20,075 nucleotides of DNA from a virus. This document shows positions 3 to 18,187 of the stretch, piece by piece. The notes under the pieces were generated by a model, which made no database searches, was not told where the DNA came from, and saw only the letters and a list, made by a program, of their open reading frames with translations. The stretch spans positions 1-20,075 of the IMG/VR virus record IMGVR_UViG_3300030085_004990; one strand, written 5' to 3'. How positions within the stretch are numbered: position 1 is the first letter of the stretch; each line of letters begins with the position of its first letter. A program made the position numbers and the translations under genes.

Positions 3-3000
3 CTTGTACGTCAATCGAATGTCGGAGAAGGTTCAGTGGTCTTCGGCCCGTCTGTTTACGAACTGCCCCTGCTTCCGTTCGAGAAAGAATTAATCAAGAC
101 GATTGGAGTAACTGAGGAGGAGTATCGCAAGTTTGCTGCTGAGGTGCGGCGCAAGGGCGTAATACGTCCCGCTGAATATGATCACATCCCTGAAATCCAA
201 GCAGGACCTGCCACGCCATTTCTTATTCAACTGGGCATTGGACTGCTTATTGGTGGTGCGGCTTATCTCTTAACACCAAAGCCCAAGATGCCTGAGGCAT
301 CAAAGCAGTCTCAGATGAATCTTGGGAGCGTTAATGCTGGCAACCGTTTTACTCAAAGCCGAGGTTTTGACACGCTGAACGAGCTAGCAGATTACGGCTT
401 GCCTATCCCAATCATCTTCGGTCTTTACGACGAAGCAACTAAAACTGGCGGAATGCTTGTTACACCAAAACTGGTGTGGTCAAGAATGTTCAGTCATGGA
501 ACGCAGCAATCAGCCAAGTTGATGTTTGTTGTAGGCGAGCAAGGGGTTTCCAATAACAACAGCCCTCCAGATGGCATTGAAAAGCCAAGTCTTGAAGGAA
601 TTTTCCTTGGCAACAATGCCTTGGACGTTGTTCACGAAGACTTTTTTGCTTTTTACTGGAAAAAAAATACGACTGCTTCTGGCATAAGTCGAATCAGACG
701 TAACAACTTAGTGTGGGGAACGGCAGGCGCTCCAGATCGTGGAGATCCCATGCCATTCGATGCTGGTGATGATGACGTATTTTTGTGTCCAAGCAATACG
801 GCTGATAATACGGAAGATTTTTGCCACGCATATTCTCTCTCTAATAATGCAGAGTTTGGCGTTTATGGCGCGATTGCAAATGGCACGGGGTATAGGGTCA
901 ATTATGAAGTCGTTTCTATTCAAGATGAGCAAGACAAAGAGCCATACAAAAGATCCCTTGCTCTGCGTCGCCTGAAAATTACTGGCAGCAGAAACAAAAA
1001 AGGGGATGTCAAAGATGAAGACTTTCTCGACAGAGTCAAAAGGCAAAATCAAGAAGGTAAAGGTCGCCAGTACAGCCCGCGCATGGGAGTGGTCCAGATT
1101 ATGCGCAATGGTACAAAAATAAAGCCATCTGATGGCACATCAAAAGAGATTTATAGCGTTCAAGTAGACGATGAGATTGAGTTTAAGATGAGCAAGCGTC
1201 AAATACCTGAAGATATTTACGAGCGCAGCAACAATAGAGGCAAAGAGTCTGTTGATGACATTAACCAAACAGTGAGATCAGAGCAACTTGCTGCCGATGA
1301 TGCGTTGCAAGTTGGAGAGCAGTTTGCCATTGGAAATACGATATGGAAGGTTGTCCGGCGGAGGCTGACAAGATTTACTCCCGAGGAAGATAATGCACGG
1401 GATCAATTTATTACCCTAAGGTGTATTGACACAAATGAGTCTCGTCAAAAACAAATTGGCGTTCTTAACAGGGACTTAGTGATAGACCCGTCGGATCATT
1501 TTATTTCAGACGGCGGTGAGTTTGAGCCCTCTTCAGGCAGTCCATACACCAATAACAGGAGGGGAGGCGTTGGAGCAGGATTTTTCCCTTTGACCCGAAT
1601 TTCTACGGGCTTGGTGAGAAACAACAGGCCAGCAGTCGTTACTGAAATTGGCATTAGAAGCAGGGTTTTTCAGAATTTGCAGGGCCTTTGCGCTTTCAAC
1701 ACTGTCCCAAGCCCCAACGAATTGGACAAGTTTGACGATAAAAATGTCCAAGTGCGTTCAGGTACTTACACAGGTCCAATCACAAGATCTTCTGTTTTTC
1801 AAGTTTTTGTCAGGAAAGCCGGCCTCGGTGAAACCTCAGAAAGCTTTGAGTTTCAAAGAATAAATCATTACTTTGTTGTTACTGGTAGCAGTCCTGTCGA
1901 TCAATACAATTTCCTGCGTTTTACTCATCCGCATGACTTGCCGCCAACAGAGCTTGAATTTAAGTTTGTTCCGATTCCTGGCTCTGAATTGAGGTCATTG
2001 GATAAAGAAGAGCCAATGATTCGCTTGTCTGCATCACTTTCTGAGGAGGACAGTGATCCTCTGCATTTGTCAGACGATGTCCCGGGGCTTGGAACGATCA
2101 ACATAACGCTTGCCGGCAATAGAATTGTTAAAGGTCAAATAGAACTCAATAGTCAGTTTATTAGAGATCCACAAAAAACTGAATTAGTAGAAGGAACCAG
2201 AAAGCCCAAGTCAGTTACTCGTAGCTTTGCTTTACCTCAAGACGTAGAAGGCGACGTAGTCACTGTAAGCGGCATTGAAAGAGAGGCGAATATATCTAAT
2301 GAGCGCGACATTGTTTCAGGTAAATTAGGCGCTTTTTTCCACGAAATTTTTGGAAACGCTGACGACCCTGTACATGCAGTCGGTACTTTTAAGACAAAGC
2401 AGACCAGGGAGATTTTAAGTACAAACAGGCGTCGATGGATTGTAGTTAAGTGGACGGTTGAGAAGAGACCACTGCCAGAAGGTCATTATGCACGCGACAA
2501 CGGCGCAGAGAATTCATGGGCCTGGAGGGGCACTGAAGTCGTAGGAAGCTCTGACGGCTATAGCGTGAACGATGACCCGCTGGAGTTTAAACGCGGGTTT
2601 GGCTCTACTGGTGATGGTACGTCGCAGAGCGCTTATTCAAGCAGCAACCCGTTCCGCAATAATCCCGTGGCAACGATGACGTTTTCCGGGCAAAGATACA
2701 GGATTACTGATGTAGACAGAAGAGAGTTTGCAGTTGGCAAGTCTCAGGCTTACTACTATGAAGTTTTTGGAAATGCTGCAAATCTTGAAATAGGAGAGTC
2801 AAAAACCGTTGTTAAAAACTATCCCGACGGTTCGAGGAAAATTAAAGTGCAAATGACGGCCACTGTAAAAGAGCAAGTAAACCATTTTAGTGGTGAGACA
2901 AAGGGCTGGAATCATCCAACCAAGATAGAAGTCATACAAGATTCAGATACTACAAGCAACTGGAACAAAGGAGACACTTATAGTGATCTAGTCACAATAT

Positions 3001-4454
3001 CTTCTAGCAACCCTTATATCACTGCATTTGAGAAAACCGGCTTTAAATATGTTATCGGCGATATTGGAAAAGTAGAAACTACAACAATCGTATCAGGCGA
3101 AGAGATATATGAAACCCAAAGTCAATATGCGGACATAAGCCTTTACCGTGGGCTTGTGCAGAAGTCAAACGAGTCTGAGCCAGAACATACAATCGTTTAT
3201 GTGAATGAAATTGTTCCGAACAAAGAGACTCCTCAATACAACCACACAACACTCGCCGGCTTGTCTCTTAAAGCTAGCCGTAACTTCACGAGTCTTGATC
3301 AGCTGAGATGCTGGCTTGGCAGTGGCTTGCATGTAACGCGACTGCACCCTGATCGATCTGTCTACGACTTAGAAGATCTTAGTGTCAATGGGCTTGCTCA
3401 CGGTCCAAGCAATTTGTTTACTGACCTAGTGTTTTACCTGATGGCCAACACTATGGGTGGGGCAGGTTCATTGTTAAAAATTAGTGACGCGCAGACCAAC
3501 CCAGCGTTAATTAACAAGGCTGACCTCGTCGAGACATCAAGGTTTCTTCAAAAGCAAAAATTGTTTTTCAATGGCGTGATTGGCGATCGCACTAATTTGC
3601 GCCAGTTTATTGCAGATACAGCTCCATACTTTCTGTGTAATTTTGTAATTACAAACGGAAAGTTTTCTTTGCTGCCAGCTTTGCCGGTAATGGAAGGTGG
3701 TGAGCTTAACTTGGGGCCAGTTGCAATCAAGCAGCTTTTCACCGCTGGCAACATTCTTGAGGACAGTTTTAAGGTTGAATACTTGAGGAGTGAAGAGCGA
3801 CGGCCTTTTAAGGCTGTAGTGCGTTTCAGGCATGAAACCAAAAACAAATTTCCACAGGAAAAAGTCATAGAGGTCAAGCTGCTAAACCAGCTAACCAAGC
3901 ATGGGATTGAGCTTTTGACCCAAGAGCAGTTCGATTTAACTCAGTTCTGCACTTCAAAAAGGCACGCAATACAAGTCGCTAAATACTTTTTGGGCATCCG
4001 TGACCTTGTGACCCATACGATCAGTTTTTCAACAACAGTGCATGGATTAGACCTAAAAGCAGGTGACTACATCAAGGTCGTCACTACTTCAAGCCCCTAT
4101 AACAGCGCAAACAATGGAACGGTGAGTAGCACTGGAGTTGTCACCAGCGTTAGCGATCTAGCAGACGGTCAGTATGACGTGTCGTACTTTGCGACAGGCT
4201 CTGCAGACGTTGAGCAGGACATAATGGGTGTTAGCAATGGAGTTGTTGATGATGAAAAATTCCATGATTCTGTTTTTAGTCTTATCGGCTCAAATGTCCA
4301 CGAGAACGTCTACGTCGTCGAGCAGCTGACTTTTTCGGAGGAAGGCACAGTAGATATCGTTGCTTCAGAGCACCCTTGCGATGAGAATGGAGCTAGCAAG
4401 CTTGCGCAACTTGTCGCAAGCGACAGCTTAGTTCACATAGTTGAACCCACCTAA
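3..4454 (+). CDS. Giant tail-tip / host-specificity (J-like) protein, probably 5'-partial
   Basis: Probable central tail-tip protein that contacts the host, resembling the lambda J class. Numbering from the GTG at 36 gives 1472 residues. There is a hydrophobic, glycine-rich segment at about 62-80 ending in the motif LLTPKPKMP, typical of tail-assembly/J-like proteins. A conserved-looking block follows at about 104-152 (RFTQSRGFDTLNELADYG, then PIPIIFG, GGMLVTPKLVWSRMF). A long beta-rich middle follows, and the C-terminal third has the hub-like pattern of such proteins. The reading frame is open back to base 3 with plausible residues (LVRQSNVGEGS), so the gene may begin left of the window. The GTG at 36 has a GGAGAAGG purine run at 24-31 and remains an alternative start. 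The stop overlaps the next ATG by one base (TAATG), so the genes are translationally coupled. From memory, similar large proteins occur in marine cyanophages. Confidence 0.75.
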   Translation, partial: LVRQSNVGEGSVVFGPSVYELPLLPFEKELIKTIGVTEEEYRKFAAEVRRKGVIRPAEYDHIPEIQAGPATPFLIQLGIGLLIGGAAYLLTPKPKMPEASKQSQMNLGSVNAGNRFTQSRGFDTLNELADYGLPIPIIFGLYDEATKTGGMLVTPKLVWSRMFSHGTQQSAKLMFVVGEQGVSNNNSPPDGIEKPSLEGIFLGNNALDVVHEDFFAFYWKKNTTASGISRIRRNNLVWGTAGAPDRGDPMPFDAGDDDVFLCPSNTADNTEDFCHAYSLSNNAEFGVYGAIANGTGYRVNYEVVSIQDEQDKEPYKRSLALRRLKITGSRNKKGDVKDEDFLDRVKRQNQEGKGRQYSPRMGVVQIMRNGTKIKPSDGTSKEIYSVQVDDEIEFKMSKRQIPEDIYERSNNRGKESVDDINQTVRSEQLAADDALQVGEQFAIGNTIWKVVRRRLTRFTPEEDNARDQFITLRCIDTNESRQKQIGVLNRDLVIDPSDHFISDGGEFEPSSGSPYTNNRRGGVGAGFFPLTRISTGLVRNNRPAVVTEIGIRSRVFQNLQGLCAFNTVPSPNELDKFDDKNVQVRSGTYTGPITRSSVFQVFVRKAGLGETSESFEFQRINHYFVVTGSSPVDQYNFLRFTHPHDLPPTELEFKFVPIPGSELRSLDKEEPMIRLSASLSEEDSDPLHLSDDVPGLGTINITLAGNRIVKGQIELNSQFIRDPQKTELVEGTRKPKSVTRSFALPQDVEGDVVTVSGIEREANISNERDIVSGKLGAFFHEIFGNADDPVHAVGTFKTKQTREILSTNRRRWIVVKWTVEKRPLPEGHYARDNGAENSWAWRGTEVVGSSDGYSVNDDPLEFKRGFGSTGDGTSQSAYSSSNPFRNNPVATMTFSGQRYRITDVDRREFAVGKSQAYYYEVFGNAANLEIGESKTVVKNYPDGSRKIKVQMTATVKEQVNHFSGETKGWNHPTKIEVIQDSDTTSNWNKGDTYSDLVTISSSNPYITAFEKTGFKYVIGDIGKVETTTIVSGEEIYETQSQYADISLYRGLVQKSNESEPEHTIVYVNEIVPNKETPQYNHTTLAGLSLKASRNFTSLDQLRCWLGSGLHVTRLHPDRSVYDLEDLSVNGLAHGPSNLFTDLVFYLMANTMGGAGSLLKISDAQTNPALINKADLVETSRFLQKQKLFFNGVIGDRTNLRQFIADTAPYFLCNFVITNGKFSLLPALPVMEGGELNLGPVAIKQLFTAGNILEDSFKVEYLRSEERRPFKAVVRFRHETKNKFPQEKVIEVKLLNQLTKHGIELLTQEQFDLTQFCTSKRHAIQVAKYFLGIRDLVTHTISFSTTVHGLDLKAGDYIKVVTTSSPYNSANNGTVSSTGVVTSVSDLADGQYDVSYFATGSADVEQDIMGVSNGVVDDEKFHDSVFSLIGSNVHENVYVVEQLTFSEEGTVDIVASEHPCDENGASKLAQLVASDSLVHIVEPT

Positions 4455-5215
4455 TGGCTTTCCCAATTCTCAAGCCTTCTAGCCGGAGTTACGACCCTGG
4501 AACGTATCCGGTCAAGGTTTTCAAGGCTCAAAACGGCCAAGAGACTCGCATTTTGTATGGCAGTGAACGGACTGAGGTCAAACTCAGCTTGTCTTACGCC
4601 AACATCGGCGATCCCAATGCTGAGCTTTTTTTAGACCACTACGACGAAGTGCAGGGCACGTTTCAAACTTTTAAACTGCCAGGACAGGCGTTAGGCGGTT
4701 GGGAAGGCAACGATGATGCGCTCAAGCCAGCAGAGATTGCGACTCCTACCGTGACCTACAACGTCAAGGTAGTTGCTGATGGCAACCAAAATTATTTTCG
4801 TTTTGACAACGATAATTACACCGCCAACGCGCAGACGCTTGAGTTGACTGAAGGCACGATTTATTTGTTTAGCCAGCAAAACGTTTCTAATGCTGGGCAT
4901 CCGTTCCGTTTTTCCACAACAAGCAACGGCACTCATAACAGCGGAACGGAGTACACGACTGGCGTGACGACATTTGGAACGCCTGGGCAAGCTGGCTCGT
5001 ACACAAGGATTCAGGTAGCAACTGGAGCGCCAACGCTGTATTACTACTGTTCTGCCCATCCTGGAATGGGAGGTCAGGCAAATACACCTGCTGCGACAAC
5101 TACTGCCTCTACCTCTGGCAGCCAAGCTAAGTACAGATATGAAAGCCCGCCGCAGGTTGTCCAGGTGCGGCCTGGGATTAGCACTGTTACAGTGAATCTG
5201 ATTGGCGTGATCTGA
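4454..5215 (+). CDS. Minor tail protein split by a cupredoxin-like domain
   Basis: 253 residues with a three-part structure. Residues 1-95 (starting MAFPILKPSSRSYDPGTYPV) and 225-253 (YRYESPPQVVQVRPG and a final beta strand) look like two halves of one small tail protein. Between them, about residues 100-211 form a cupredoxin-like beta sandwich with a possible type-1 copper site: His149 in NAGHP, then Cys199, His202 and Met205 in YYYCSAHPGMGG. The same module recurs at residues 820-928 of the large fibre at 8956. The start is fixed by the one-base overlap with the upstream stop, and the next gene also overlaps by one base (TGATG). The flanking halves and operon position support a tail role. 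Copper binding is inferred from ligand spacing only; the domain could be purely structural. Confidence 0.7.
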   Translation: MAFPILKPSSRSYDPGTYPVKVFKAQNGQETRILYGSERTEVKLSLSYANIGDPNAELFLDHYDEVQGTFQTFKLPGQALGGWEGNDDALKPAEIATPTVTYNVKVVADGNQNYFRFDNDNYTANAQTLELTEGTIYLFSQQNVSNAGHPFRFSTTSNGTHNSGTEYTTGVTTFGTPGQAGSYTRIQVATGAPTLYYYCSAHPGMGGQANTPAATTTASTSGSQAKYRYESPPQVVQVRPGISTVTVNLIGVI

Positions 5216-5649
5216 TGGCAAAGGTCTACACCGGCAGAGATGGCGTACTGCAGCTCGGTGGGACGACCTTGGCCAAGGTCGTTAGTTTTCAGCTGTCGTC
5301 AAATCTGGAAACGCTTGAGACGACAACGCTGAACGAGCATATTCGTGTTTATGTGCCTGGTGTCGTCGGTTATAGCGGCAGTGCCACGTTGTTGTATTAC
5401 AAAGAAGATGACGGCAGCTTCAACACCACAAACCTCCTAAACAAGCTCTACAAGACTGGCAGCGAAGGTGTTAGCAGTAGCGACACCGTTGACCTGACCT
5501 TTCGCTGGGTTGATGGAACGGACAACAACGACATTAAGCTTAGTGCTTATATAACTAGCGCTTCAATTGGAGCATCAACTGGCGAAATTGTTAGGGCTGA
5601 AATTTCTTTCCAAGGCACTGGCGTCTTGTCAACAGTAACGATCTCATGA
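5215..5649 (+). CDS. Tail-tube-like protein (first paralogue)
   Basis: 144 residues, nearly all predicted beta strand. The pattern fits the tail-tube/major tail protein fold: an ETTTLNEHIRVYVPG block at about 36-50, a glycine-rich strand pair, a loop rich in acidic residues, and a closing strand EISFQGTGV. The length is in the usual range for small siphovirus tube proteins. It starts inside the TGATG overlap with the previous gene, and its TGA overlaps the next ATG by four bases (ATGA). The following gene contains a related block, so the two look paralogous. A genuine tube protein normally precedes the tape-measure and tip genes, whereas here it follows the tip gene. It may therefore be a terminator, hub or decorating protein with a tube-like fold. 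Confidence 0.6.
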   Translation: MAKVYTGRDGVLQLGGTTLAKVVSFQLSSNLETLETTTLNEHIRVYVPGVVGYSGSATLLYYKEDDGSFNTTNLLNKLYKTGSEGVSSSDTVDLTFRWVDGTDNNDIKLSAYITSASIGASTGEIVRAEISFQGTGVLSTVTIS

Positions 5650-6515
5650 GCGTATATCTAGGCACTTTTGGTGAGGTTGAGCTGAAGCGTCAATTCGACG
5701 GAGGCGAGCTGTCCTCTACGATTGATCCAGCAGATGTCAACGTAACGCGCAAGCGATTTAGCTTTGATTTCGAGCATGGTCAATTGCTTACAGGTGACCA
5801 GATCGAAATCACAAGCACAGATGGCGCAAACTTAAGCTTTATCAGCGGTCATTCAAGCGATAGTATTAAAAGATTTATTCATGTTGACGAGCTAGATGGC
5901 ATCAGGCTTTTCAGCACTTTCGCTCACGCCATGGGCGGTGATTCTGCGAATGCGATTGCTCTTGCCTCGCCAGGAAGTGCCATCCCGATCAAGGTCATTG
6001 TTGCAAACTCCTCTTACAGGGTCTTGGGGAGAGTTCAAAGTTATGAGCTAAATACTACTCGTGAGACTGTAGACACAACAACTCTTTCTGACCAGTTTCG
6101 CAGTCAAATAAGCACAGTGATGTCTGGATCAGGCAGAATGTCTTGTGAGTGGGAATATACGGGTGATTCTATTAAAGAATTGCCGCATTATTTGCTGGAG
6201 CTAGCTTTGCGCACAAGGATTGGCAGCTCTTTTGCCGCCAAGTTTTACTTAAAGACGGCTAGCTACAACCCGGCAAATCACACGAATGCAGCTGATGATG
6301 AGATTTGGTATGAGGTGACAGGAGTTTTAACTGCTTGTGCAGTTCAATTTAATCCAAACACTTTAGTCCAAATCACTGCCGATTTTATAACTACTGGTGA
6401 GATTCAAATAAGAGCCACGGTCGATCCAAGGGACGCTCTCTTGCAAGAGGACTCTGGTGAAATACGCTTGGATCAAGACAGCGGCGCTAAACTGCTGTTA
6501 CAGCAGGACGTTTAA
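5646..6515 (+). CDS. Larger tail-tube-like paralogue
   Basis: 289 residues, beta-rich, without signal peptide or membrane segment. A central block at about 130-180 (RVQSYELNTTRETVDTTTLS, then a Gly/Ser-rich strand and a Trp-Glu-Tyr) parallels the ETTTLNEHIRVYVPG block of the preceding 144-residue protein, and the strand order after it is similar. This suggests a tube-fold domain in the middle, with an extra N-terminal domain (1-120) and a short acidic tail containing LQEDSGEIRLDQDSGAKLLLQ. Four-base ATGA overlap with the upstream gene shows coupling. The family is not recognised precisely. A tail-tip or tail-completion role is the best inference from paralogy and operon position. Confidence 0.55.
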   Translation: MSVYLGTFGEVELKRQFDGGELSSTIDPADVNVTRKRFSFDFEHGQLLTGDQIEITSTDGANLSFISGHSSDSIKRFIHVDELDGIRLFSTFAHAMGGDSANAIALASPGSAIPIKVIVANSSYRVLGRVQSYELNTTRETVDTTTLSDQFRSQISTVMSGSGRMSCEWEYTGDSIKELPHYLLELALRTRIGSSFAAKFYLKTASYNPANHTNAADDEIWYEVTGVLTACAVQFNPNTLVQITADFITTGEIQIRATVDPRDALLQEDSGEIRLDQDSGAKLLLQQDV

Positions 6516-6532: not shown

Positions 6533-8959
6533 ATGGCTGATCTCAAAATTAGTGAGCTTAATGCGCTTGCTGGCTCCGCTCTAGCCACTGGTGATTTAGT
6601 TGCTGTTGTCGACGACAGCGCCAGTGAGACCAAGAAGCTGACGGTTGGCGACTTGGTCGCCAATGGCGTCACATTGATTAATGACGACACGATCCCTGGC
6701 GCGAAGATTCTTTTTGCCGCAGGTGATATTGCTACAGCGGCTGTTGCCGACTCAGCGATCACAACTGCCAAAATCGCCAACGACGGCGTAACGGCAGCAA
6801 AGCTTGCCGATGAGTCAACGGTCGATCTTGTCACGACACTGCCAGGTTCTGGTGGCTTTGTTGGCCAGCTCGCAGTTGATACGGACGACAACTCTCTTCA
6901 TTGTTGGGACGGCTCGTCTTGGCTGGAATTGAAGGCCGGTGGTTCGGTCAATAGTGTTTCCGGCAGCACCGTTGGTGTCATCGACATCACTGCTACGACC
7001 ACAAGTGGTGCAGTCACGATTGCCGCTGTCATTAACGACACGTCTGCAGCCAATCAATTCCTTGCCGGCCCCACAAGTGCTGGTGGTGCGGTTGAGTATC
7101 GAACAATTACTGGCAGCGATATTCCTGTTGCGACTAGCAGCGCCAAGGGCGGTGTGATCGTCAATGGCGAAGGGCTCCGCATGGACTCCAACACCATTGA
7201 GGTTGATAACGACGTAACGGCTAGCACTACGCACCATGTCGTTACTTACAGCGCAAAAGGTCTGATCACTGGCGGTCGTGCGATTACGGCTAGTGATCTT
7301 CCTGCTGCAACCAGCTCTGCGAAAGGTGCTGTCATCCCTGGAACGGGTCTGTCTGTTGATGCCAGCGGCAACCTAAACCACAGCAACACGGTTACGACTG
7401 GCACCTTCACCAAGGTGACGATTGACGGCCAAGGTCATGTCACAACAGGCGACACACTGGTTGCAGATGATATTCCTGACCTTTCGGCTGCGAAGATTAC
7501 AAGCGGCACGATCCCGTCAGATCGCATCGCTACAGATGCCATCACGGCAGCAAAACTTGCTAATCAAAGTGTCACCAAGTTTGGCGGTGCTGGCGCTACC
7601 GATAACATCGTTACCTTCCCTGATGGTGACTTTACAGGCCAGTTCTTCTTCGATGAAAAGAACGAAGATCTCTACATTTATACGGGAACATCATTCCTGC
7701 CGATCACGGTTATCAGCGGCAACCTGATCAACGCTGGAACGTATAACGCCAACACAAACCTGCTGACCAGTGTCACGACTGCTGGCTCTGCTGCTGGCTT
7801 TACGTCTGGAGCGGCACTGCCTGCACCTGCTGGCACTAACCTCAACTATTACGTTGTCGTTGACACGTCAGGTACAGGTTCAGGCAACGCGCCTGCAGTG
7901 GCCCTTGCACCACCTGACATGTTGATCTCGCTTGGCACGGGATCAACTTTCGAGTTGATTGACGTTTCCAACGCTATTGCTGGTCAAACTGCAGCCAACA
8001 TTTCAGTTGTTCCTGTTGGCAACATTGCAGCAAGCAATGTTCAGTCAGCCCTGCAGGAGCTAGACAGCGAAAAAATTGGTGCTGCTAGCCCGACGTTTAC
8101 TGGCACGGTGCTGTTGGGTCAAAACGCTGTGCTGGCGTTTGAGGGATCTGCAGATGATGCAAACGAGACCACAATCACAGTCACTAACCCGACTGCTGAT
8201 CGCACAATCACGTTTCCGGATGTCACGGGCAATGTCGTAACCACTGGCGATACTGGAACGGTTACTAGCACGATGATTGCGAACGCAACGATTGCGGACG
8301 CAGACATCAGCGCAACGGCTGAGATTGCAGTCAGCAAGCTTGCGAACGGTTCTGCCCGTCAACTACTGCAGACCGATGCAGCTGGAACAGGTGTCGAGTT
8401 CACTAGCAATGTGGACATCCCTGGCACGTTGGATGTGACAGGCGTTGCAACGTTTGATAGCACTACAACTTTTGCGGGTGTTGCGACGTTTAACAGCAAC
8501 ATCGTGATGGAGGGCACGTCAGCTGACGATCACGAGCTGACCCTAACCTGCAATCCAACTGCTGATCGAACCGTCACGCTGCCTGACGAAACGACAACCC
8601 TTGCTGGTCTTGCTGTTGCTCAGAGCTACACAAAGGCACAGCGTGGAACGCCTGTTCCGCTGACTGATGGGACAGTGGCAGTGGACCTAAGTCTTGGCAA
8701 TAACTTCACGTTGACGCTTGCAGAGGACTCAACGCTTAGCGCTCCAACAAACGCAACTGCTGGTCAGTCAGGTGTGATTGTGGTCACGCAGGATGGCACA
8801 GGAAACCGCACATTGGGTTACAACACGGCGTATAAATTTGCTGGCGGTACGGTGCCGACGGTCACTGCTACGGCGAATGCAGTTTCAGTTCTTGCGTACT
8901 ATGTAGAAAGCTCTAGCCGGATTACTATGACGGCATTGCTGGATACGAAGCGGTCATGA
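6533..8959 (+). CDS. Repetitive tail fibre protein
   Basis: 808 residues, low in Cys and aromatic residues and very rich in Thr, Ala, Gly, Asp and Val, as in fibrous trimeric phage proteins. The N-terminus (KISELNALAG, then DLVAVVDDSASETKKLTVGDL) matches, from memory, the particle-proximal end of many marine phage fibres. Residues 72-92 contain ITTAKIANDGVTAAKLADES-type repeats. Residues 192-311 hold two imperfect repeats of about 59 residues, each opening with SD-[IL]-P-x-A-T-S-S-A-K-G. A second repeat pair, NPTADRT[IV]T[FL]PD, lies near 553 and 674. The C-terminal 120 residues look like a compact tip domain. An upstream CGGAGC at about 6519-6524 may be a weak ribosome-binding site. The stop overlaps the next ATG (ATGA), so it is probably made together with the following adhesin. 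Confidence 0.8.
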   Translation: MADLKISELNALAGSALATGDLVAVVDDSASETKKLTVGDLVANGVTLINDDTIPGAKILFAAGDIATAAVADSAITTAKIANDGVTAAKLADESTVDLVTTLPGSGGFVGQLAVDTDDNSLHCWDGSSWLELKAGGSVNSVSGSTVGVIDITATTTSGAVTIAAVINDTSAANQFLAGPTSAGGAVEYRTITGSDIPVATSSAKGGVIVNGEGLRMDSNTIEVDNDVTASTTHHVVTYSAKGLITGGRAITASDLPAATSSAKGAVIPGTGLSVDASGNLNHSNTVTTGTFTKVTIDGQGHVTTGDTLVADDIPDLSAAKITSGTIPSDRIATDAITAAKLANQSVTKFGGAGATDNIVTFPDGDFTGQFFFDEKNEDLYIYTGTSFLPITVISGNLINAGTYNANTNLLTSVTTAGSAAGFTSGAALPAPAGTNLNYYVVVDTSGTGSGNAPAVALAPPDMLISLGTGSTFELIDVSNAIAGQTAANISVVPVGNIAASNVQSALQELDSEKIGAASPTFTGTVLLGQNAVLAFEGSADDANETTITVTNPTADRTITFPDVTGNVVTTGDTGTVTSTMIANATIADADISATAEIAVSKLANGSARQLLQTDAAGTGVEFTSNVDIPGTLDVTGVATFDSTTTFAGVATFNSNIVMEGTSADDHELTLTCNPTADRTVTLPDETTTLAGLAVAQSYTKAQRGTPVPLTDGTVAVDLSLGNNFTLTLAEDSTLSAPTNATAGQSGVIVVTQDGTGNRTLGYNTAYKFAGGTVPTVTATANAVSVLAYYVESSSRITMTALLDTKRS
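7106..7468 (+). repeat. Two imperfect ~59-residue repeats inside the fibre gene
   Basis: Codons 192-251 and 251-311 of the fibre encode two tandem units. Each begins with an SDIP/SDLP motif followed by ATSSAKG[GA]V, continues with a G-x-G-L-x-[MV]-D turn, and ends with a histidine-containing Val/Thr strand and a glycine pair. The DNA copies have diverged, so this is an old protein-level repeat and not a recent duplication. Such units usually form a triple-stranded shaft. Confidence 0.6.
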
Positions 8960-11900
8960 GTATTCCTGGAAGTGCTAGCCCGCTGTTTCTTGCTACAGCG
9001 GCTGCTGCTGATGCTGCGGCGTTCCAGATTGACCGCAGCTTGAGGTTTGACAACAGCGTAAATTCGACTTTAAGCAAAACTTTTTCTTCTTCAGGGAACA
9101 GAAAAACTTGGACGCTCTCTTGGTGGATGAAGCTAGGAAAACTAGGCAGCAACCGTGGCTTATTCGGGATGCCAGGCTCTTCTAGTGGTTCGCCACAATT
9201 TTATTCACGGATAGGGTCCGACGATAAGTTGTATGTGTATGAATACAACACTAGTGGCACATACCAATTTATCAAAAAAACTGATGCTGTTTTGCGTGAT
9301 CCTAGTGCGTGGTATCACTGCGTTTTTCAGTTCGATTCTAGCCAAGGCACAGCAGAAGACGGCTTCAAAATTTATATCAATGGGACAAGGGTGACCAGTT
9401 GGACTACAAATAATCTACAAAACTATTCACAAAACTATGAAGGCGCTTGGAACAACAGTGGCAACACAGGTGTTCATGTAATTGGGCGGTCAGATTCTTA
9501 TTTCGACGGCTATATGGCCGAAATTCATTTTGTTGATGGCACGGCACTTACTGCGGATGATTTTGCAGAAGAAGATAGCAACGGAGTCTGGCAGCCAAAG
9601 GAGTATACGCATGGCACTGCTAAGCATTTAGGCGACTGGGTAGCCGACACCTCAGGCACGCATTACAACGTTAATACCACTAAGGACAGAAGCTTCGATG
9701 GAGATACTTCAACTCGCTCTCAGCCAGCTGCTGGCCAAACTCTAAATTTTCAGCCTTCAACAGCGATTACAGGCATCACAAAAGTAAGAGTTAGAGTTGA
9801 CCGAAACTCAGGAACTGCTGACAGCGACTTGCAGCTTAATGGGAGCAGTATAGGTGGCAGTTATAGCAACGGAAATGATCAATCTGCAGAATTTACCGTT
9901 ACTACTTTGACCAGCTTGAGTTGGAGCGCGACTTCAGGCGGAAATGCTTTCAGCGTGCGAATGATCGAGATTTACTACGATGGCGCTTATCATGCCCTAA
10001 CCATAGGTGAAGTAAATTCTTTCTATCTGAAGTTTGCGGACAACAGCAGCAACTCTGCACTTGGAACGGATAGCAGCGGGAATAGCAACACTTGGGACGT
10101 TACTAACCTTGACGCTGGGGCTACAGCTTATGCGGCGACTGGGGCTGATCCGAATAGCAAAATTGTTAGCGGCAACTACCAAGACTTTTGGGATGGCAGC
10201 ACGTCTACTTACATAGAAATAAGCCGGGGTGACTATGTCCAAATGACGAGCACTGCGCTTCCTGCTGCAAGCAGTACCGTCGGGTTTTACACTGCAAATG
10301 GTGCGGCCACTGCAACACTGAGAATCAACGGATCCAGTGTTTTTCAAGCTAATTCCTCAACTCTTGGATGGTTCGATTTTAGTTTCAGTGGAGCTATAAA
10401 CAAAGTTGAAATTGCATATTTAGGCAGCTCTGGCGGCACTAATTATTTTCGTGCTTTTCGTATTGACGGAACCACTATTGTTGGCGCTAGCCCCTCAGAA
10501 ACTGACAGCCTGATCGACTCCCCAACCAACTACGACGACGGGACAAATGTTGGTGGTAACTATGCGACGTTGAATCCTTTAATATCTCCTGCTTCCTCAC
10601 ATCTAAGTGAAGGTAATTTAAAGATTGCAGCGACTACCACTAGCTGGGTGCAAGCCACTTCAACGATTGGGGTCAATTCTGGGAAGTGGTATTGGGAAGT
10701 TTTGTTTGAAGGAACAAATACTTTAATTGGAGTCACTTCAAATCCTAATAGTGGCAGTTACATAGGCGAGGTCGCAGGCAGTTATGGACGTGACGCAGGG
10801 GGTGGTTATTACATAAACGGAAGTAATGGCACTGGATATACGTCTTTCGCTTCAGGCACAACTCTTGGAGTTGCGCTTGATATGGACAACGGCACCGTAA
10901 CTCTTTATTTTAACGGAAGTGCTGAATCAACTTTTGCCACTGGCTTGGACACCTCAAAAACATTTTATGCAGGTGTTTCTGTTTATGGTTCAACCTCAAA
11001 AAATACTATTAACTTCGGCGCTAGACCCTTTGCCTACACGCCACCAACAAACCATCTAGCGCTTGTAACCACCAATCTTCCCGACCCAACGATTGCCAAT
11101 GGTTCGACGGCGATGGATGTCCTTTTGTACACAGGCGATGGTCAATCGAGCAAAGCAGTTACTGGTTACGGTTTCTCCCCAGACTTTTTGTGGCTTAAAG
11201 AAAGGAGTTCAACTTCTGATCACGGTCTGTGGAACACAGTTGTTGGAAGCGGCAAGTATTTGTCATCTAATTTGACCGCTGCTGAAGTCACTACAACCAC
11301 AGAGCTGAGTTCTATTGATTCTGCTGGCTTCACTGTTGGTTCATCTGGTATGACCAATCAAAGCAGCCAGACATATGTCGCGTGGGCTTGGGACGCTGGC
11401 GCCAACAGTAGTAAAACATATACCGTTAAAGTCGTAAGCGATAGTGGAAACAAGTACCGCTTCGATGACTTTGGCTCCAGTGCCGTGACTCTTGAGCTTG
11501 AAGAAGGGAGTACCTATGTGTTTGACCAGTCAGATTCCAGTAACGCAGGCCACCCACTGCGATTCTCCACTACGTCTAACGGAACGCACGGCGGAGGCAC
11601 TGAATATACGACAGGTGTGACGACTACAGGCACACCTGGTCAGGCTGGCGCCAAAACCACAATTGTCGTAGCAGCAAGTGCGCCAACTCTTTATTACTAC
11701 TGTAGTGTGCATAGCGGGATGGGTGGCCAGGCTAATACAAACAGCACCGCTGGGGCGTCTAATCTTGATGGAAGTATTCAGTCGCTTGTCCGCACCAATC
11801 CGTCTGCTGGATTTTCGATTGTTACTTGGACTGGAAACAGTGGAACAGTAGGTCATGGATTAAATGCTGCTCCTGGTTTAATTATTTCCAAAATAAGAAA

Positions 11901-12426
11901 CCAATCGTCAGTATGGCCCGTGCAACACAGCTATGACACCAGCCAGTTCCTTACTTTAAACACAACTGACGCAGCCAGTTCAGGTGCCACTAGGTTTGGC
12001 GCGGCTCCAACTAACTCCGTTTTTAGTGTTGGCAGTTGGTGGAATAGTAACAGCGACGGAGTGGCTTACTGCTTTGCACCTGTCGCAGGCTATAGCGCGT
12101 TTGGTTCGTACACCGGCAACGGAAATGCTGATGGTGCATTTATATACACAGGTTTTAAAATTGCATATTTAGTAATAAAATGCACTAGCCACACAAGCAT
12201 GTGGAGCTGTTGGGACACAACGCGAGACGTTTACAACCCAGCGGAACGCCGTCAAAAGCTTGATGACAACAGAACCGAGGAGTCTGGTGACTCAAATTTG
12301 TATATTGACTTGCTGAGCAACGGATTTAAGACAAGAGTCACAGACACTGATACAAACGGTAGCGGCAGAACATATGTGTATATGGCATTTGCTGAGCATC
12401 CCCTTAAAACTGCACGAGCACGCTGA
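8956..12426 (+). CDS. Mosaic fibre/adhesin: LamG-, discoidin-, SPRY- and cupredoxin-like modules
   Basis: 1156 residues. Visible order: short Ala-rich N-terminus; LamG/concanavalin-like domain at about 44-205 (WTLSWWMKLG, WYHCVFQFD, DGYMAEIHFVDG); a discoidin-like beta domain at about 222-346 (SFDGDTSTRS to VRMIEIYYDG); a linker (NSFYLKFADNSSNSALGTDS); a second copy of the discoidin-like domain at about 400-510; a SPRY-like domain at about 573-692 (SGKWYWEVLFEG, ALDMDNGTVTLYFNG); and a C-terminal phage domain from about 720 (YTGDGQSSKAVTGYGFSPDF) to YVYMAFAEHPLK. This last domain is interrupted at 820-928 by a cupredoxin-like module with His866, Cys916, His919 and Met922. Host-surface binding is the likely role. 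It overlaps the upstream fibre by four bases. Confidence 0.75.
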   Translation: MSIPGSASPLFLATAAAADAAAFQIDRSLRFDNSVNSTLSKTFSSSGNRKTWTLSWWMKLGKLGSNRGLFGMPGSSSGSPQFYSRIGSDDKLYVYEYNTSGTYQFIKKTDAVLRDPSAWYHCVFQFDSSQGTAEDGFKIYINGTRVTSWTTNNLQNYSQNYEGAWNNSGNTGVHVIGRSDSYFDGYMAEIHFVDGTALTADDFAEEDSNGVWQPKEYTHGTAKHLGDWVADTSGTHYNVNTTKDRSFDGDTSTRSQPAAGQTLNFQPSTAITGITKVRVRVDRNSGTADSDLQLNGSSIGGSYSNGNDQSAEFTVTTLTSLSWSATSGGNAFSVRMIEIYYDGAYHALTIGEVNSFYLKFADNSSNSALGTDSSGNSNTWDVTNLDAGATAYAATGADPNSKIVSGNYQDFWDGSTSTYIEISRGDYVQMTSTALPAASSTVGFYTANGAATATLRINGSSVFQANSSTLGWFDFSFSGAINKVEIAYLGSSGGTNYFRAFRIDGTTIVGASPSETDSLIDSPTNYDDGTNVGGNYATLNPLISPASSHLSEGNLKIAATTTSWVQATSTIGVNSGKWYWEVLFEGTNTLIGVTSNPNSGSYIGEVAGSYGRDAGGGYYINGSNGTGYTSFASGTTLGVALDMDNGTVTLYFNGSAESTFATGLDTSKTFYAGVSVYGSTSKNTINFGARPFAYTPPTNHLALVTTNLPDPTIANGSTAMDVLLYTGDGQSSKAVTGYGFSPDFLWLKERSSTSDHGLWNTVVGSGKYLSSNLTAAEVTTTTELSSIDSAGFTVGSSGMTNQSSQTYVAWAWDAGANSSKTYTVKVVSDSGNKYRFDDFGSSAVTLELEEGSTYVFDQSDSSNAGHPLRFSTTSNGTHGGGTEYTTGVTTTGTPGQAGAKTTIVVAASAPTLYYYCSVHSGMGGQANTNSTAGASNLDGSIQSLVRTNPSAGFSIVTWTGNSGTVGHGLNAAPGLIISKIRNQSSVWPVQHSYDTSQFLTLNTTDAASSGATRFGAAPTNSVFSVGSWWNSNSDGVAYCFAPVAGYSAFGSYTGNGNADGAFIYTGFKIAYLVIKCTSHTSMWSCWDTTRDVYNPAERRQKLDDNRTEESGDSNLYIDLLSNGFKTRVTDTDTNGSGRTYVYMAFAEHPLKTARAR

Positions 12427-12710: not shown

Positions 12711-13496
12711 ATGCCTTCAATACCTGATCTTACAGTCAGGCCTGTAGGTGATTTGTACATCCGACCTATTCATAATTGGGTAGGCGTACCGCCAGTTGTC
12801 AATGCGGTGTCACCACCCGTTACCTTGACTCTTGGCACACCAATTATTCAAATACCTGGTTGCGTTAAGGCGCACCCTAGTTCAGATAAATCGGACATAA
12901 TTGGCGATGATGATCCGAAAGGAGTGAGGACTTATTGTGATGCAAATCAGCCAACTTTTTCTCCTCTTGACTACACTCCTGAAAATTTAATATATCAAAA
13001 GCCAGCTAAATTTAGTGGGTATAGGGGGTCAAAACCTGCGCAAAAACAAGACCAAAAAACTGAGGATTTTGCAAAAACTACGTTGCCAATACCACCTGTT
13101 ACTGGTGAAATAAATACAGCTAATAATAAAGAAAAGGATAGTGTAGAAACTAAGCCTGTTTGTGCAGATGGCTACAACTTAGTTGACAACAAATGCTTAG
13201 AAATTAAAGCTGAAGTGATAAGTGAAGTATCCTTTGTCGAAAAATATTTACCCACAGCGCCTCAAGTAACTACTACAGCAACCATAGCTGTCGTCGCCAC
13301 TACGTCTGCTTTATTGGCCAAACCATTAGCAGATCTTCTTTTAAAATTAATTAAACCTACTGTGAAGAAGATAATGAAGAAGATTGCTGCGTTGAGAGGA
13401 CAGAACCAGAAGGTAGAGAGTGTTTTACAGCGTCGTCTTGCCCAACGTGATCGGAATCGTGCGATTCGTGCTCTTCGAGTTGCTTTAAAGAAATAG
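12711..13496 (+). CDS. Pro-rich protein with hydrophobic segment and basic C-tail
   Basis: 261 residues of unknown function. The N-terminal 50 residues are Pro/Val-rich (DLTVRPVGDLYIRPIHNW). Four cysteines occur: Cys51 and Cys76, and a pair 151/162 in CADGYNLVDNKC, a small loop that suggests a disulfide. A hydrophobic helix at about 186-214 (ATIAVVATTSALLAKP) is followed by a strongly basic tail (KPTVKKIMKKIAALRG and Arg-rich helices). From memory, similar proteins are conserved in marine T4-like cyanophages and are listed as structural or hypothetical. The last 140 bases are also coding on the opposite strand for the end of the converging gene, leaving no room for a terminator between the two operons. 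Confidence 0.65.
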   Translation: MPSIPDLTVRPVGDLYIRPIHNWVGVPPVVNAVSPPVTLTLGTPIIQIPGCVKAHPSSDKSDIIGDDDPKGVRTYCDANQPTFSPLDYTPENLIYQKPAKFSGYRGSKPAQKQDQKTEDFAKTTLPIPPVTGEINTANNKEKDSVETKPVCADGYNLVDNKCLEIKAEVISEVSFVEKYLPTAPQVTTTATIAVVATTSALLAKPLADLLLKLIKPTVKKIMKKIAALRGQNQKVESVLQRRLAQRDRNRAIRALRVALKK

Positions 13497-14124
13497 GATG
13501 ATAATGCGGGACTAAAGTATCGCCTGGCATCTTAACTACAACATCCTTGCAAACATCAAAGTATGGTGATTTTGGGTGAAAAGTTATACCATTCTTTGCG
13601 AGCTCACCACAATTTTTAAGTCTTGCGATTTCAAAATCTAGTCTTCGATTCGCAAGCACTTGTTGTTGAAGAGCTATTTGTGTGTCGACAGCTTTTTTAC
13701 AACGTTTTTGCAAACTATTGTCTAAGGGAAAAGATATTGTGGCGGAAAGTCCAGCGTTTAAGCTGTGCGTATCTTTTTGGCCTGTCCTTACATCTTTCCA
13801 ATATAAAATTTCACCTGGATTATCAATTACTCCATCGCCGTCAACATCGCTGACGTCATAGACAGGATCTTTGTAGTAGCCCTCAAACGGTTTCTGAAAA
13901 GAATTACTATTGGTAATAAAAGGAGTGATATTAAGTGTAGGGCCTTGACACTGTATGCCCATTCCGTAGGTATTGGTTATATACGGGCCTTGTAACACCT
14001 GAATTGCCTGATTGGTAACCGAGCCGCTGCTTGTCGCGACCGGGTTTGCTGTGGCGCTTACACCACCAATATCAGCTGCCATGCAGGGTGAAGCAAAAGT
14101 AGCTATCGCACTTATTGAGAGAAT
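13357..14124 (-). CDS. Secreted conserved protein, third gene of minus operon; probable ATT start
   Basis: Unknown function. The mature part begins ADIGGVSATANPVATSSGSV and contains TNQAIQVLQGPYITNTYG, a calcium-loop-like DVDGDGVID, and a helical region with LDFEIARLKNCGELAKNG followed by FHPKSPYFDVCKD. The C-terminus is His/Ser-rich. From memory this closely resembles a conserved cyanophage protein. It needs a signal peptide, and a good one exists (ILSISAIATFASPCMA|AD), but no ATG, GTG or TTG lies at its beginning. The only candidate is ATT at 14124-14122, overlapping the upstream stop by 13 bases with a weak AGAAAG nine bases before it. The first in-frame ATG (14283) would add 53 residues read from inside the upstream gene with no secretion signal. 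The last 140 bases overlap the + strand gene. Confidence 0.65.
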   Translation of the reverse strand: MLSISAIATFASPCMAADIGGVSATANPVATSSGSVTNQAIQVLQGPYITNTYGMGIQCQGPTLNITPFITNSNSFQKPFEGYYKDPVYDVSDVDGDGVIDNPGEILYWKDVRTGQKDTHSLNAGLSATISFPLDNSLQKRCKKAVDTQIALQQQVLANRRLDFEIARLKNCGELAKNGITFHPKSPYFDVCKDVVVKMPGDTLVPHYHPISLKQLEEHESHDSDHVGQDDAVKHSLPSGSVLSTQQSSSLSSSQ

Positions 14125-14567
14125 ATGGAGGTACTTTCTGTAACGCTGTGAATTTCTGTGGTTCTTTGAATTACAGTCTGATTGGACAGACCCGGACCTG
14201 TCATGGTTTCTGTGAACTGAAAGCCTTTTCCGGGATTCACTATCTCCCATCTCGGTTTGTTTGCAGTATCGAGAGTTGTCCATGTACTTGTGACTCCATT
14301 GACCGTATTTGAGGTCGAGTCGGTAGCACTTGGCGCGAGACTTCCGCCAGTATTTTTGATATTACTACCAGTTACAGAGTACTGGTACCCAGTGTTGTAG
14401 TCAATTGAATTTATTGTTTCAGAGACCACTGATGTTGTCTCAGTTTTTGACTGTAAGCTGCCTTGAGTGAAGTTTGGGACTACAGGAACTGAGTACGCAG
14501 CTTGCGAAAGGCCATGCAAAATTCCTAGGCAAAAACCTAGTACAAGCGAATCGCGAAGGTTATACAT
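14112..14567 (-). CDS. Secreted Ser/Thr-rich protein, second gene of minus operon
   Basis: 151 residues if started at the ATG at 14567, which lies one base after the upstream TGA (TGACATG) and gives a clean signal peptide (MYNLRDSLVLGFCLGILHG, with cleavage near SQAA). A GTG seven codons earlier would overlap the upstream gene and weaken the signal. The mature protein is beta-rich with many Thr, Ser and Asn. Recognisable stretches include YNTGYQYSVTGSNI, SNTVNGVTSTWTTLD and GPGLSNQTVIQRTTE. It ends in SIFSQ, and its stop overlaps the next gene's probable start by 13 bases. From memory similar proteins are found in marine cyanophages next to the neighbour genes. Function unknown; an exported virion or surface protein is the best guess. 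Confidence 0.7.
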   Translation of the reverse strand: MYNLRDSLVLGFCLGILHGLSQAAYSVPVVPNFTQGSLQSKTETTSVVSETINSIDYNTGYQYSVTGSNIKNTGGSLAPSATDSTSNTVNGVTSTWTTLDTANKPRWEIVNPGKGFQFTETMTGPGLSNQTVIQRTTEIHSVTESTSIFSQ

Positions 14568-14568
14568 G

Positions 14569-15060
14569 TCAACGCACGGTGACCTCACTTACGTGCTGTC
14601 CTGTTGCCGTTGTACCGGCGCCACCAGCCGTAATCGTCATTGCACCGTCTGTAGCGATCGTTCCAGCCAGCGATCCTGCTACACCACCAGAGGAGGTTGT
14701 AGTCGAGCCCAGCATGGGAAGAGAAGGGACAACACCTGACGACACTGTCGTTCCACTGGTCACATCATCTCCTTCGATGTATGACTCGCTAAATGTAAAG
14801 GCATCGCCAGTGGTGGTGATTTCTGCCCCCATAGGGGTATATCCGACTGCAGTACCAGATGAAAGAGCACCAAGACCGCCAAAGGAGCTCCCTGACTTGA
14901 CAGAGACGTTAGAGCCACTTACTGAGTAAGTGCTGCCAATACGTGTTGCCTGACTAGCTGCACCATCGACAGTCAGCTGTACTGAACTTTGTAATTTATG
15001 AGTAATATCTGCACGTGCAGCCCCTGCAAATAAGATGATTAATGCGAAGATTCGGAGCAT
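14569..15060 (-). CDS. Secreted Gly/Ser/Thr-rich protein, first gene of minus operon
   Basis: 163 residues. A short signal peptide (MLRIFALIILFAGAARA, cleavage before ADITHK) precedes a Gly/Ser/Thr-rich body with very few charged residues. The N-terminal mature part (THKLQSSVQLTVDGAASQAT, then RIGSTYSVSGSNV) shares the YSVSGSN / YSVTGSN motif with the second gene, so the two may be distant relatives. The C-terminal half is almost all small residues, as in amyloid-like or fibrous secreted proteins. It is the promoter-proximal gene of the three-gene minus operon. The 54-base gap to the divergent + strand gene must hold its promoter. No strong Shine-Dalgarno is seen before the ATG. Function unknown. 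Confidence 0.7.
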   Translation of the reverse strand: MLRIFALIILFAGAARADITHKLQSSVQLTVDGAASQATRIGSTYSVSGSNVSVKSGSSFGGLGALSSGTAVGYTPMGAEITTTGDAFTFSESYIEGDDVTSGTTVSSGVVPSLPMLGSTTTSSGGVAGSLAGTIATDGAMTITAGGAGTTATGQHVSEVTVR

Positions 15061-15079: not shown

Positions 15080-15115
15080 TGATATTAAACGGAGGAAACA
15101 CAGTATGATATTAAA
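15080..15115. repeat. 10-base direct repeat in the divergent promoter region
   Basis: TGATATTAAA occurs at 15080-15089 and again at 15106-15115, 26 bases apart centre to centre, within the 54-base region between the two divergent operons. The reverse complement (TTTAATATCA) gives an AT-rich element facing the minus operon. It may mark two promoter elements or a binding site for a phage regulator. A chance repeat in AT-rich DNA is possible. Confidence 0.3.
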
Positions 15116-15140
15116 TGAAAGTGATTGTACCCATGGCTGA
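15091..15140 (+). promoter_or_regulatory. Shine-Dalgarno aimed at an 11-codon leader frame
   Basis: The strongest ribosome-binding site in the intergenic region, GGAGG at 15091-15095, is nine bases before an ATG at 15105. That ATG opens an 11-codon frame ending in TGA at 15138-15140, overlapping the first codons of the downstream membrane-protein gene. The gene's own ATG candidates lie 19 (15115) and 37 (15133) bases after the GGAGG. The leader stop sits inside ATGGCTGA at 15133, an arrangement compatible with stop-and-restart. This is read from spacing only. Confidence 0.25.
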
Positions 15141-15570
15141 AGTTGTAAAGGAAGATCCCAAAGACCCTAAAAAGAAAAGTGTTTTTGCAAAGATTAAGGA
15201 GAAAGCAGGTGATAGCGAAGAACATCTTGCAATTCTCTCAAACTTTGTACGACTCGGTGTTTTAATTTGGAGTGGTGGAATCCTTACTCTGAATTACGTA
15301 ACTATTCCTGGCTTGGCCCAACAGAAAATTGATCCGACTTTCATTGCCAGCGTATTTACGGGAGTACTCGCTTCTTATGGGGTCCAGACAGCAAAGAAAT
15401 CTGGTGACGGTACGATGAAGATGAATGGGGGTTCTGGTATCACAAAAGCTGATATCGAAAAATTGATTGAAAAGGCTGCACAGACTGCGCCGGCCCAAGT
15501 CATTAGAGTTGAGCAAGCGCCTCTTAAAATCACGACTACAACTGAAAAAGACGACACCTACAAAATGTAA
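15115..15570 (+). CDS. Holin-like membrane protein
   Basis: 151 residues. A Lys/Glu-rich, cytosolic-looking N-terminus (about 8-35) precedes two hydrophobic helices, about 47-62 (LGVLIWSGGILTLNYV) and 74-92 (PTFIASVFTGVLASYGVQ), joined by a short loop, then a polar, Thr-rich tail ending DDTYKM. Small size, two membrane helices and a charged tail fit the broad holin pattern, but many small phage membrane proteins look alike. From memory, a protein with the DPTFIASVFTGVLA segment is common in T4-like cyanophages without assigned function. The start at 15115 is directly preceded by an in-frame TAA; the ATG at 15133 (MAEVVKEDP) is an equally plausible start. It lies two bases before the next gene, so they are co-translated. 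Confidence 0.6.
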   Translation: MKVIVPMAEVVKEDPKDPKKKSVFAKIKEKAGDSEEHLAILSNFVRLGVLIWSGGILTLNYVTIPGLAQQKIDPTFIASVFTGVLASYGVQTAKKSGDGTMKMNGGSGITKADIEKLIEKAAQTAPAQVIRVEQAPLKITTTTEKDDTYKM

Positions 15571-17734: not shown

Positions 17735-18187
17735 GTGTGTGCAGCCTACAGTTTTGACATAGCTGGAATACCACAAGTGTTTCATTGCGAGCAAGACTTA
17801 CTGGTTAACTTAATTGTTTTAAGCCCCAAAGCTGCTCGTCGAAAATTTAGAGCCTTCATATTCGAGAGTTGGGATTGGGAATGTGCTTATTGCGGTAAAA
17901 AATTGACCGCTGACACCGCTACAATCGATCACATTTTGCCCAAACACAAGGGCGGCCATAACATTCGATCAAACATGGCGTGTTGCTGCTCAAGCTGCAA
18001 TAGGGCCAAAGGATCGACATTGCTCAATGATTGGTACACCGAAGAACTGCCATACTTTACGGAAGAAAGGTTTGATAGAATTACTGCATGGGTTGAGCAA
18101 AAATCCTGCTCAATAAAGCTGCCCAGCACAGAATTAGCTCAAGCGTACATTGACGATGACATCTCCATCAGCTGGGTCGCAATCTAA
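17735..18187 (+). CDS. HNH endonuclease
   Basis: 150 residues with a complete zinc-stabilised HNH fold at about 50-95: CAYCGKKL (Cys50, Cys53), then IDHILPKHKGG with the Asp65-His66 pair, Asn80 in RSN, and the second zinc pair Cys85/Cys88 followed by NRAKGS. Flanking residues, including RRKFRAFIFESWDWE before it, match the usual context of phage HNH proteins. It cuts DNA; in phages such enzymes are either free-standing homing nucleases or packaging helpers. Its position beside a tRNA gene favours a homing-type mobile gene. The start is a GTG at 17735; a second GTG at V15 (17777) is possible. It overlaps the next gene by 32 bases. Confidence 0.85.
   Translation: MCAAYSFDIAGIPQVFHCEQDLLVNLIVLSPKAARRKFRAFIFESWDWECAYCGKKLTADTATIDHILPKHKGGHNIRSNMACCCSSCNRAKGSTLLNDWYTEELPYFTEERFDRITAWVEQKSCSIKLPSTELAQAYIDDDISISWVAI

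Follow-up and report, generated by a model that had tools for sequence, protein, structure and literature searches.

A self-contained domain with the predicted fold and ligand set of a type-1 copper protein appears to have entered the tail proteins of a virus at two places, one being a small minor tail protein from the tail-tip region and the other a large tail fibre. The best reading of the evidence is that this module belongs to a cupredoxin subfamily that lacks annotation and that serves repeatedly to decorate tail and adhesion proteins. In its specific form, to which a probability of roughly 0.6 is assigned, the module would be a type-1 copper cupredoxin domain that decorates exposed loops of tail proteins, faces outward, takes part in host engagement and binds one copper ion.

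Gene context of the module

The window, meaning the whole stretch of 20,075 nucleotides analysed here, is a 20-kb record whose source is a virus fragment. Its tail genes include the following.

36..4454, plus strand: gpJ-like tail tip protein, adjoining the small tail protein
4454..5215, plus strand: minor tail protein with the inserted module, 253 aa (coordinates include the stop codon; phrog_15525, E = 4.7e-20)
5215-6515: two tail-tube-like proteins
6533-8959: repetitive fibre-like protein, 808 aa, following the tube-like proteins and preceding the large fibre
8956..12426, plus strand: large tail fibre, 1156 aa, with SPRY and DUF7483 domains, carrying the second copy of the module

The sole relatives of the gpJ-like protein and of the small-protein scaffold in phage records come from the Synechococcus siphophages S-CBS1, S-CBS3 and S-LBS1, which makes a cyanobacterial host likely. 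The 808-aa fibre-like protein has partial family matches only.

Several genes downstream of the tail proteins also deserve mention. Three open reading frames on the minus strand (13357-14283, 14112-14588 and 14569-15060) lie amid an otherwise plus-strand stretch and may form a small cargo cassette spanning 13357-15060. One of the three matches DUF6322 (E 3.1e-38), and the start of the reading frame at 14569-15060 resembles that of an exported protein (MLRIFALIILFAGAARA). A DUF6450 protein (15115-15567, E 1.1e-32) is encoded directly after this cluster, and an HNH endonuclease gene (17735-18187) is located close to the end of the tail/lysis region.

Insertion into the small tail protein

The first copy of the module and the parts of the small tail protein that surround it can be placed as follows.

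4454..4747, plus strand: N-terminal scaffold part, common to relatives without the module
4748..5086, plus strand: cupredoxin-like module, copy 1, residues 99-211 (pLDDT of 93.5 when modelled alone; Foldseek; hhalign)
4898..4900, plus strand: putative copper ligand His149 (conservation, hhalign)
5048..5050, plus strand: putative copper ligand Cys199 (conservation, hhalign)
5057..5059, plus strand: putative copper ligand His202 (conservation, hhalign)
5066..5068, plus strand: putative copper ligand Met205 (conservation, hhalign)
5087..5131, plus strand: linker rich in Ala, Thr and Ser, residues 212-226 (pLDDT below 50 at 213-227)
5132..5212, plus strand: C-terminal scaffold part (YRYE...LIGVI), common to relatives without the module

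The original prediction had proposed that a beta-rich module bearing these four residues divides an otherwise continuous tail protein. Direct checking of the codons placed all four ligands exactly as claimed, with residue 100 starting at position 4751 and residue 211 finishing at position 5086. The proposed division of the protein was borne out by relatives in which the insertion site is empty. The form of about 250 aa that bears the module is encoded by 32 viral contigs, one of which ends at the contig edge, and a further module-bearing contig is cut inside the module. A shorter form of about 125-142 aa is encoded by 27 other viral contigs, and in these proteins the same flanks, namely the N-terminal part (ending in QTF) and the C-terminal part, join directly.

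A tree built from the flanks separates carriers from non-carriers by one branch (support 98/99), and the outgroup relatives of the small tail protein in the S-CBS phages are likewise without the module. Given this topology and outgroup, a single gain of the module in the lineage of the small tail protein would be the simplest reading. The scaffold itself is strongly matched by the phrog_15525 family of 'minor tail protein' and weakly by the phrog_1302 family of 'distal tail protein' (E 0.0018-0.13), and its gene follows the J-like gene.

A second copy in the tail fibre

The window holds a second copy of the module that was overlooked in the earlier note.

11413..11739, plus strand: cupredoxin-like module, copy 2, interrupting DUF7483 (70% identity to copy 1)
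11551..11553, plus strand: copy 2 ligand His866
11701..11721, plus strand: copy 2 ligand loop Cys916-x2-His919-x2-Met922

Positions 4-107 of the DUF7483 profile match immediately before this copy and positions 105-330 match immediately after it, and therefore copy 2 interrupts a known domain as well, in a tail protein that is unrelated to the small one. Copy 2 resembles a copy from the myovirus S-B68 (83.5% identity) more closely than it resembles copy 1, a sign that different types of phage have probably swapped parts of their fibres.

The tail fibre also provides a caution. A third Cys-x2-His-x2-Met motif (CTSHTSM) occurs by chance in the DUF7483 part of the protein, outside both modules, and for this reason the motif alone was rejected as evidence.

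Fold and relationship to cupredoxins

The module modelled by itself with AlphaFold2 is predicted with high confidence (pLDDT 93.5, pTM 0.87). In this model, Cys199 is at the end of a strand, His202 and Met205 are in the loop that follows, and His149 just precedes a strand. These are the strand and loop positions at which the ligands of cupredoxins are found. When the model was compared with the PDB using Foldseek, 47 of the 50 best matches were cupredoxins, including copper nitrite reductase, N2O reductase and multicopper oxidases. The best match was 2dv6 (TMq 0.66, E 6e-3), and no PDB match of either the module-only or the full-length model had an E value below 0.001. As modelled, the module has the Greek-key beta-sandwich fold of cupredoxins.

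Comparison of sequence profiles leads to the same family. When the module family was aligned with hhalign to cupredoxins drawn from cellular genomes, the comparisons scored 89.7% (E 1.8e-6) and 96% (E 3.9e-9), and a control scored 0.5%. All four ligands fall in register with those of plastocyanin, and the loop from Cys to Met is two residues shorter in the module than in the aligned plastocyanins. Homology of the module to known cupredoxins thus appears to be detectable at the level of profile-profile comparison. A profile built from diverse modules retrieved pseudoazurin, nitrite reductase and many plastocyanins from the PDB with E values of 0.04-0.6, which are individually weak, and it was the only PDB sequence query to be enriched for copper proteins. 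The Pfam plastocyanin family PF00127 gives a faint match to a related copy from SAR92 (E 0.12). Prochlorococcus phage P-HM1 has a second module that looks more like plastocyanin; its match to plastocyanin 1b3i has an E value of 7.7e-5, and its match to PF00127 (E 0.0017) falls slightly short of the curated threshold. For the module itself, no cupredoxin model in Pfam or NCBIfam gave a match.

Taken together, the structure prediction, Foldseek and profile alignment support the proposal of a beta-rich, cupredoxin-type module with a type-1 copper ligand set. The predicted strands, Foldseek and the profile alignment agree in placing the four residues where cupredoxins carry their ligands. An hhalign comparison with the six plastocyanin-type proteins alone reached only 54%.

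It is highly improbable that the module is not a cupredoxin at all, but some other beta-sandwich of an immunoglobulin-like or carbohydrate-binding kind whose motif is a coincidence. Antibody and T-cell receptor chains do appear among the weak matches, and one of 21 family members is matched by the carbohydrate-binding family CBM_4_9 (E 8e-4). However, a Foldseek search with the confidently modelled module by itself gives cupredoxins as nearly all of its top matches, and profile comparison aligns the four ligands whereas the control does not match. The window module itself gave no match to a carbohydrate-binding module.

Some searches were set aside. A sequence search of the PDB with the module alone returned only antibody-type noise, and a profile search with the whole protein was uninformative. 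The quality of the full-length model is low beyond the module (mean pLDDT 61.2), antibodies are mixed into its Foldseek list, and the module-only model took its place. Separately, a likeness in predicted fold was observed by Foldseek to two small 'beta-sandwich proteins' of giant viruses, A0A481Z6J5 of Pithovirus LCPAC302 (E 5e-6) and A0A481YVH3 of Marseillevirus LCMAC201 (E 6e-5).

Conservation of the putative ligands

The four ligands are kept in register across modules down to about 30% identity, and it is on this shared conservation of all four residues, read from alignments, that the case for a motif beyond chance rests. To count conservation fairly, loci were used that had not been picked by their Cys-His-Met loop, and a loop-based scan was excluded as biased. 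Across 25 clusters formed at 62% identity, the Cys, the second His and the Met are each present in 24, with one degenerate copy accounting for the only gap, and the first His is present in all 25. A set of 28 diverse modules is invariant only at the four ligands and at one Tyr.

The original prediction would have been weakened by homologues that conserve the fold and not these residues. Nearly all modules behave otherwise: among the matches listed for a query that left out the loop, the His, Cys, His and Met are all present in 79 of the 80 complete modules, and two further modules in this loop-independent search are cut by contig ends. The count for the first His in this search is not fully independent, because one of the search patterns still includes His149. 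Judged from these alignments, the copper-ligand set of the module is under strong constraint.

The exceptions are instructive for a different explanation, according to which the module is a decorating beta-sandwich that descends from cupredoxins and whose four residues act as a structural metal staple, with copper as such playing no role. One locus (L236) has Asp in place of His and Leu in place of Met, the two residues having been lost together. Degenerate extra copies without the Cys-His-Met loop persist in S-CAM4 (residues 852-1024 of its reading frame, YYYCLSSTIDHAGEGG) and in S-MbCM7 (residues 855-1045, YYYNSINDPENAESGG), each with an intact copy next to it in that protein. These cases fit the staple explanation, as does the fact that the carrier proteins are structural and that many tail decoration domains are beta-sandwiches. 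On the other hand, the ligands are as conserved as core glycines and hydrophobic residues, or more so, in diverse sets that are independent of the loop. Also, His, Cys, His and Met in that order constitute a ligand set for copper rather than zinc. The staple explanation is considered rather unlikely, and a copper-binding cupredoxin domain is preferred.

Distribution of the module

Two scans matched at least 548 and at least 580 stretches of the module, which is present on at least 580 viral contigs. The phages that carry it infect Synechococcus, Prochlorococcus, Pelagibacter and Methylophilales, and the phage proteins that contain it have been annotated as tail fibres, baseplate components or structural proteins of the virion. 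The labels that carriers bear, such as 'tail fiber' or 'hypothetical', are generic. Carriers available in culture include the Synechococcus phages S-B68 and S-TIM5 and the Pelagibacter phage HTVC028P.

Genome contigs from marine bacteria and archaea encode the module too. Some of these copies are viral, as indicated by T7-type fibre starts and by a cyanophage-like protein of 2377 aa. Others are cellular and belong to lipoprotein-like and adhesin-like proteins: those of SAR86, SAR92 and OM182 have lipoprotein-like starts followed by glycine runs, those of Marine Group II are in proteins with collagen repeats, and another is in a 3861-aa Bacteroidetes protein. Cellular relatives of this kind would form a family of surface cupredoxins in marine plankton that has apparently gone without annotation. 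Among five loci encoding lipoprotein-like or collagen-repeat proteins from SAR92, SAR86, Marine Group II and OM182, one was observed to be fused to a domain resembling phosphatidylethanolamine-binding protein.

This distribution does not support the link to host plastocyanin that had been suggested at the outset. The link is weak because phages that infect Pelagibacter or Methylophilales also carry the module, as do lipoprotein-like surface proteins from many bacterial and archaeal groups, and the plastocyanin (petE) genes of Prochlorococcus form a separate branch. Those phages, together with a Pelagibacteraceae genome that gave no match to PF00127, led to rejection of the notion that the module follows hosts using plastocyanin.

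The same observations bear on whether the module might be redox active, either by passing electrons at the cell surface or by sensing redox state so as to trigger tail opening. Such a function is suggested by a ligand set that is the same as that of electron-transfer copper proteins and by the one-electron carriers among the matches. However, neither a redox partner nor a conserved docking face was found, and the module is carried on unrelated scaffolds by phages of unrelated hosts, including Pelagibacter, for which one Pelagibacteraceae genome gave no match to PF00127. A redox role is considered very unlikely.

Possible roles of the module and of copper

If the module is a copper-binding decoration domain, as preferred here, then it would project outward from its two host proteins and help the virion engage the host surface. 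This adhesion role is inferred from location, and it has parallels in the protruding insertion domains of distal tail proteins in other siphophages, which serve adhesion (PMC7291167, PMC10276861). The module can likely bind copper, an expectation that has good support in the ligand alignments and the model, and its His-Cys-His-Met site with the short Cys-x2-His-x2-Met loop would hold a single copper ion. The metal would presumably be picked up outside the cytoplasm after lysis. Phage proteins fold in a cytoplasm that is poor in free copper, so that the site may in many cases carry no metal or a metal other than copper. Where copper is bound, it could serve the stability or the binding of the adhesion domain rather than electron transfer.

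A bolder proposal is that copper itself is the point, such that virions take up copper and engage the host proteins responsible for copper uptake, or mimic their cargo. This arrangement would be a copper analogue of the iron 'Ferrojan horse' in tail fibres, which provides a precedent hypothesis (PMC11705849). The strong constraint on the ligands across many phage lineages is consistent with this proposal, as are the low levels of trace metals at which the marine hosts of the carriers live. Against it, no host copper receptor is implicated, the copper in virions is putative, and non-viral proteins of cells commonly contain the module as well. On balance, copper uptake is judged to be distinctly unlikely.

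A more general statement would be that many marine tailed phages display copper-loaded type-1 domains on their tail-tip and fibre proteins and that the copper takes part in infection. This is conceivable yet doubtful, and the same doubt attaches to the ways in which copper might then act, which include receptor engagement via copper handling, redox triggering or copper delivery. If this statement is true, virions would constitute a previously unrecognised class of extracellular copper proteins and a copper ligand in seawater.

Even the preferred reading of a decoration domain has notable consequences. Iron and inserted sugar-binding domains were already on record for phage tails, and a decoration domain of tail proteins with a putative copper-type site would be an addition to these. 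The annotation sources consulted were Pfam, PHROGs and NCBIfam, and no papers on a copper-protein or cupredoxin domain in phage tails were found in the open-access journal literature searched. Based on sequence and modelling, many marine virions may carry copper on the parts that bind hosts. Were the modules loaded, abundant marine virions would hold copper, and the metal could influence adsorption or stability. The module is small and confidently predicted, and so is open to a direct bench test.

Comparison with known systems

The module is most similar to type-1 cupredoxins, which include plastocyanin, amicyanin and pseudoazurin (PF00127) and the type-1 domains of copper nitrite reductase and multicopper oxidases. 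It shares with them a predicted beta-sandwich and, in register, the ligand order of His followed by Cys-x2-His-x(n)-Met. The ligand loop of amicyanin is also Cys-x2-His-x2-Met. In contrast to these proteins, the module is below Pfam detection, its first His is followed by Pro and not Asn, and it forms part of phage tail proteins, whereas they are soluble secreted carriers.

Cyanophages are known to carry plastocyanin (petE) as a metabolic gene, which provides a second point of comparison within the cupredoxin superfamily. The module differs in that it is inside a structural protein, is without a signal peptide of its own and falls outside the plastocyanin clade. The window module gave no match to PF00127 and is not a secreted single-domain plastocyanin carrier.

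Metal sites at the host-facing end of phage tails have precedents in the HxH iron sites of T4 gp37-type fibres (PMC11705849) and in the Fe-S cluster of lambda gpL and of the R4C hub (PMC10276861). Those proteins hold iron through HxH repeats or four Cys residues, whereas the site described here, which is putative, is of the copper-type His-Cys-His-Met kind and is part of a transferable domain.

The closest architectural parallel is offered by 'evolved' Dit proteins with inserted carbohydrate-binding modules (PMC7291167) and by the insertion domain of the R4C Dit (PMC10276861). These likewise involve a small tail protein with a beta-rich domain in a loop and relatives with an empty site. The present scaffold differs in belonging to phrog_15525, with its best match to phrog_1302 being weak (E 0.0018), and in being encoded downstream of a J-like gene. 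The insert differs as well, in that it presents a putative copper site rather than a recognised carbohydrate-binding module.
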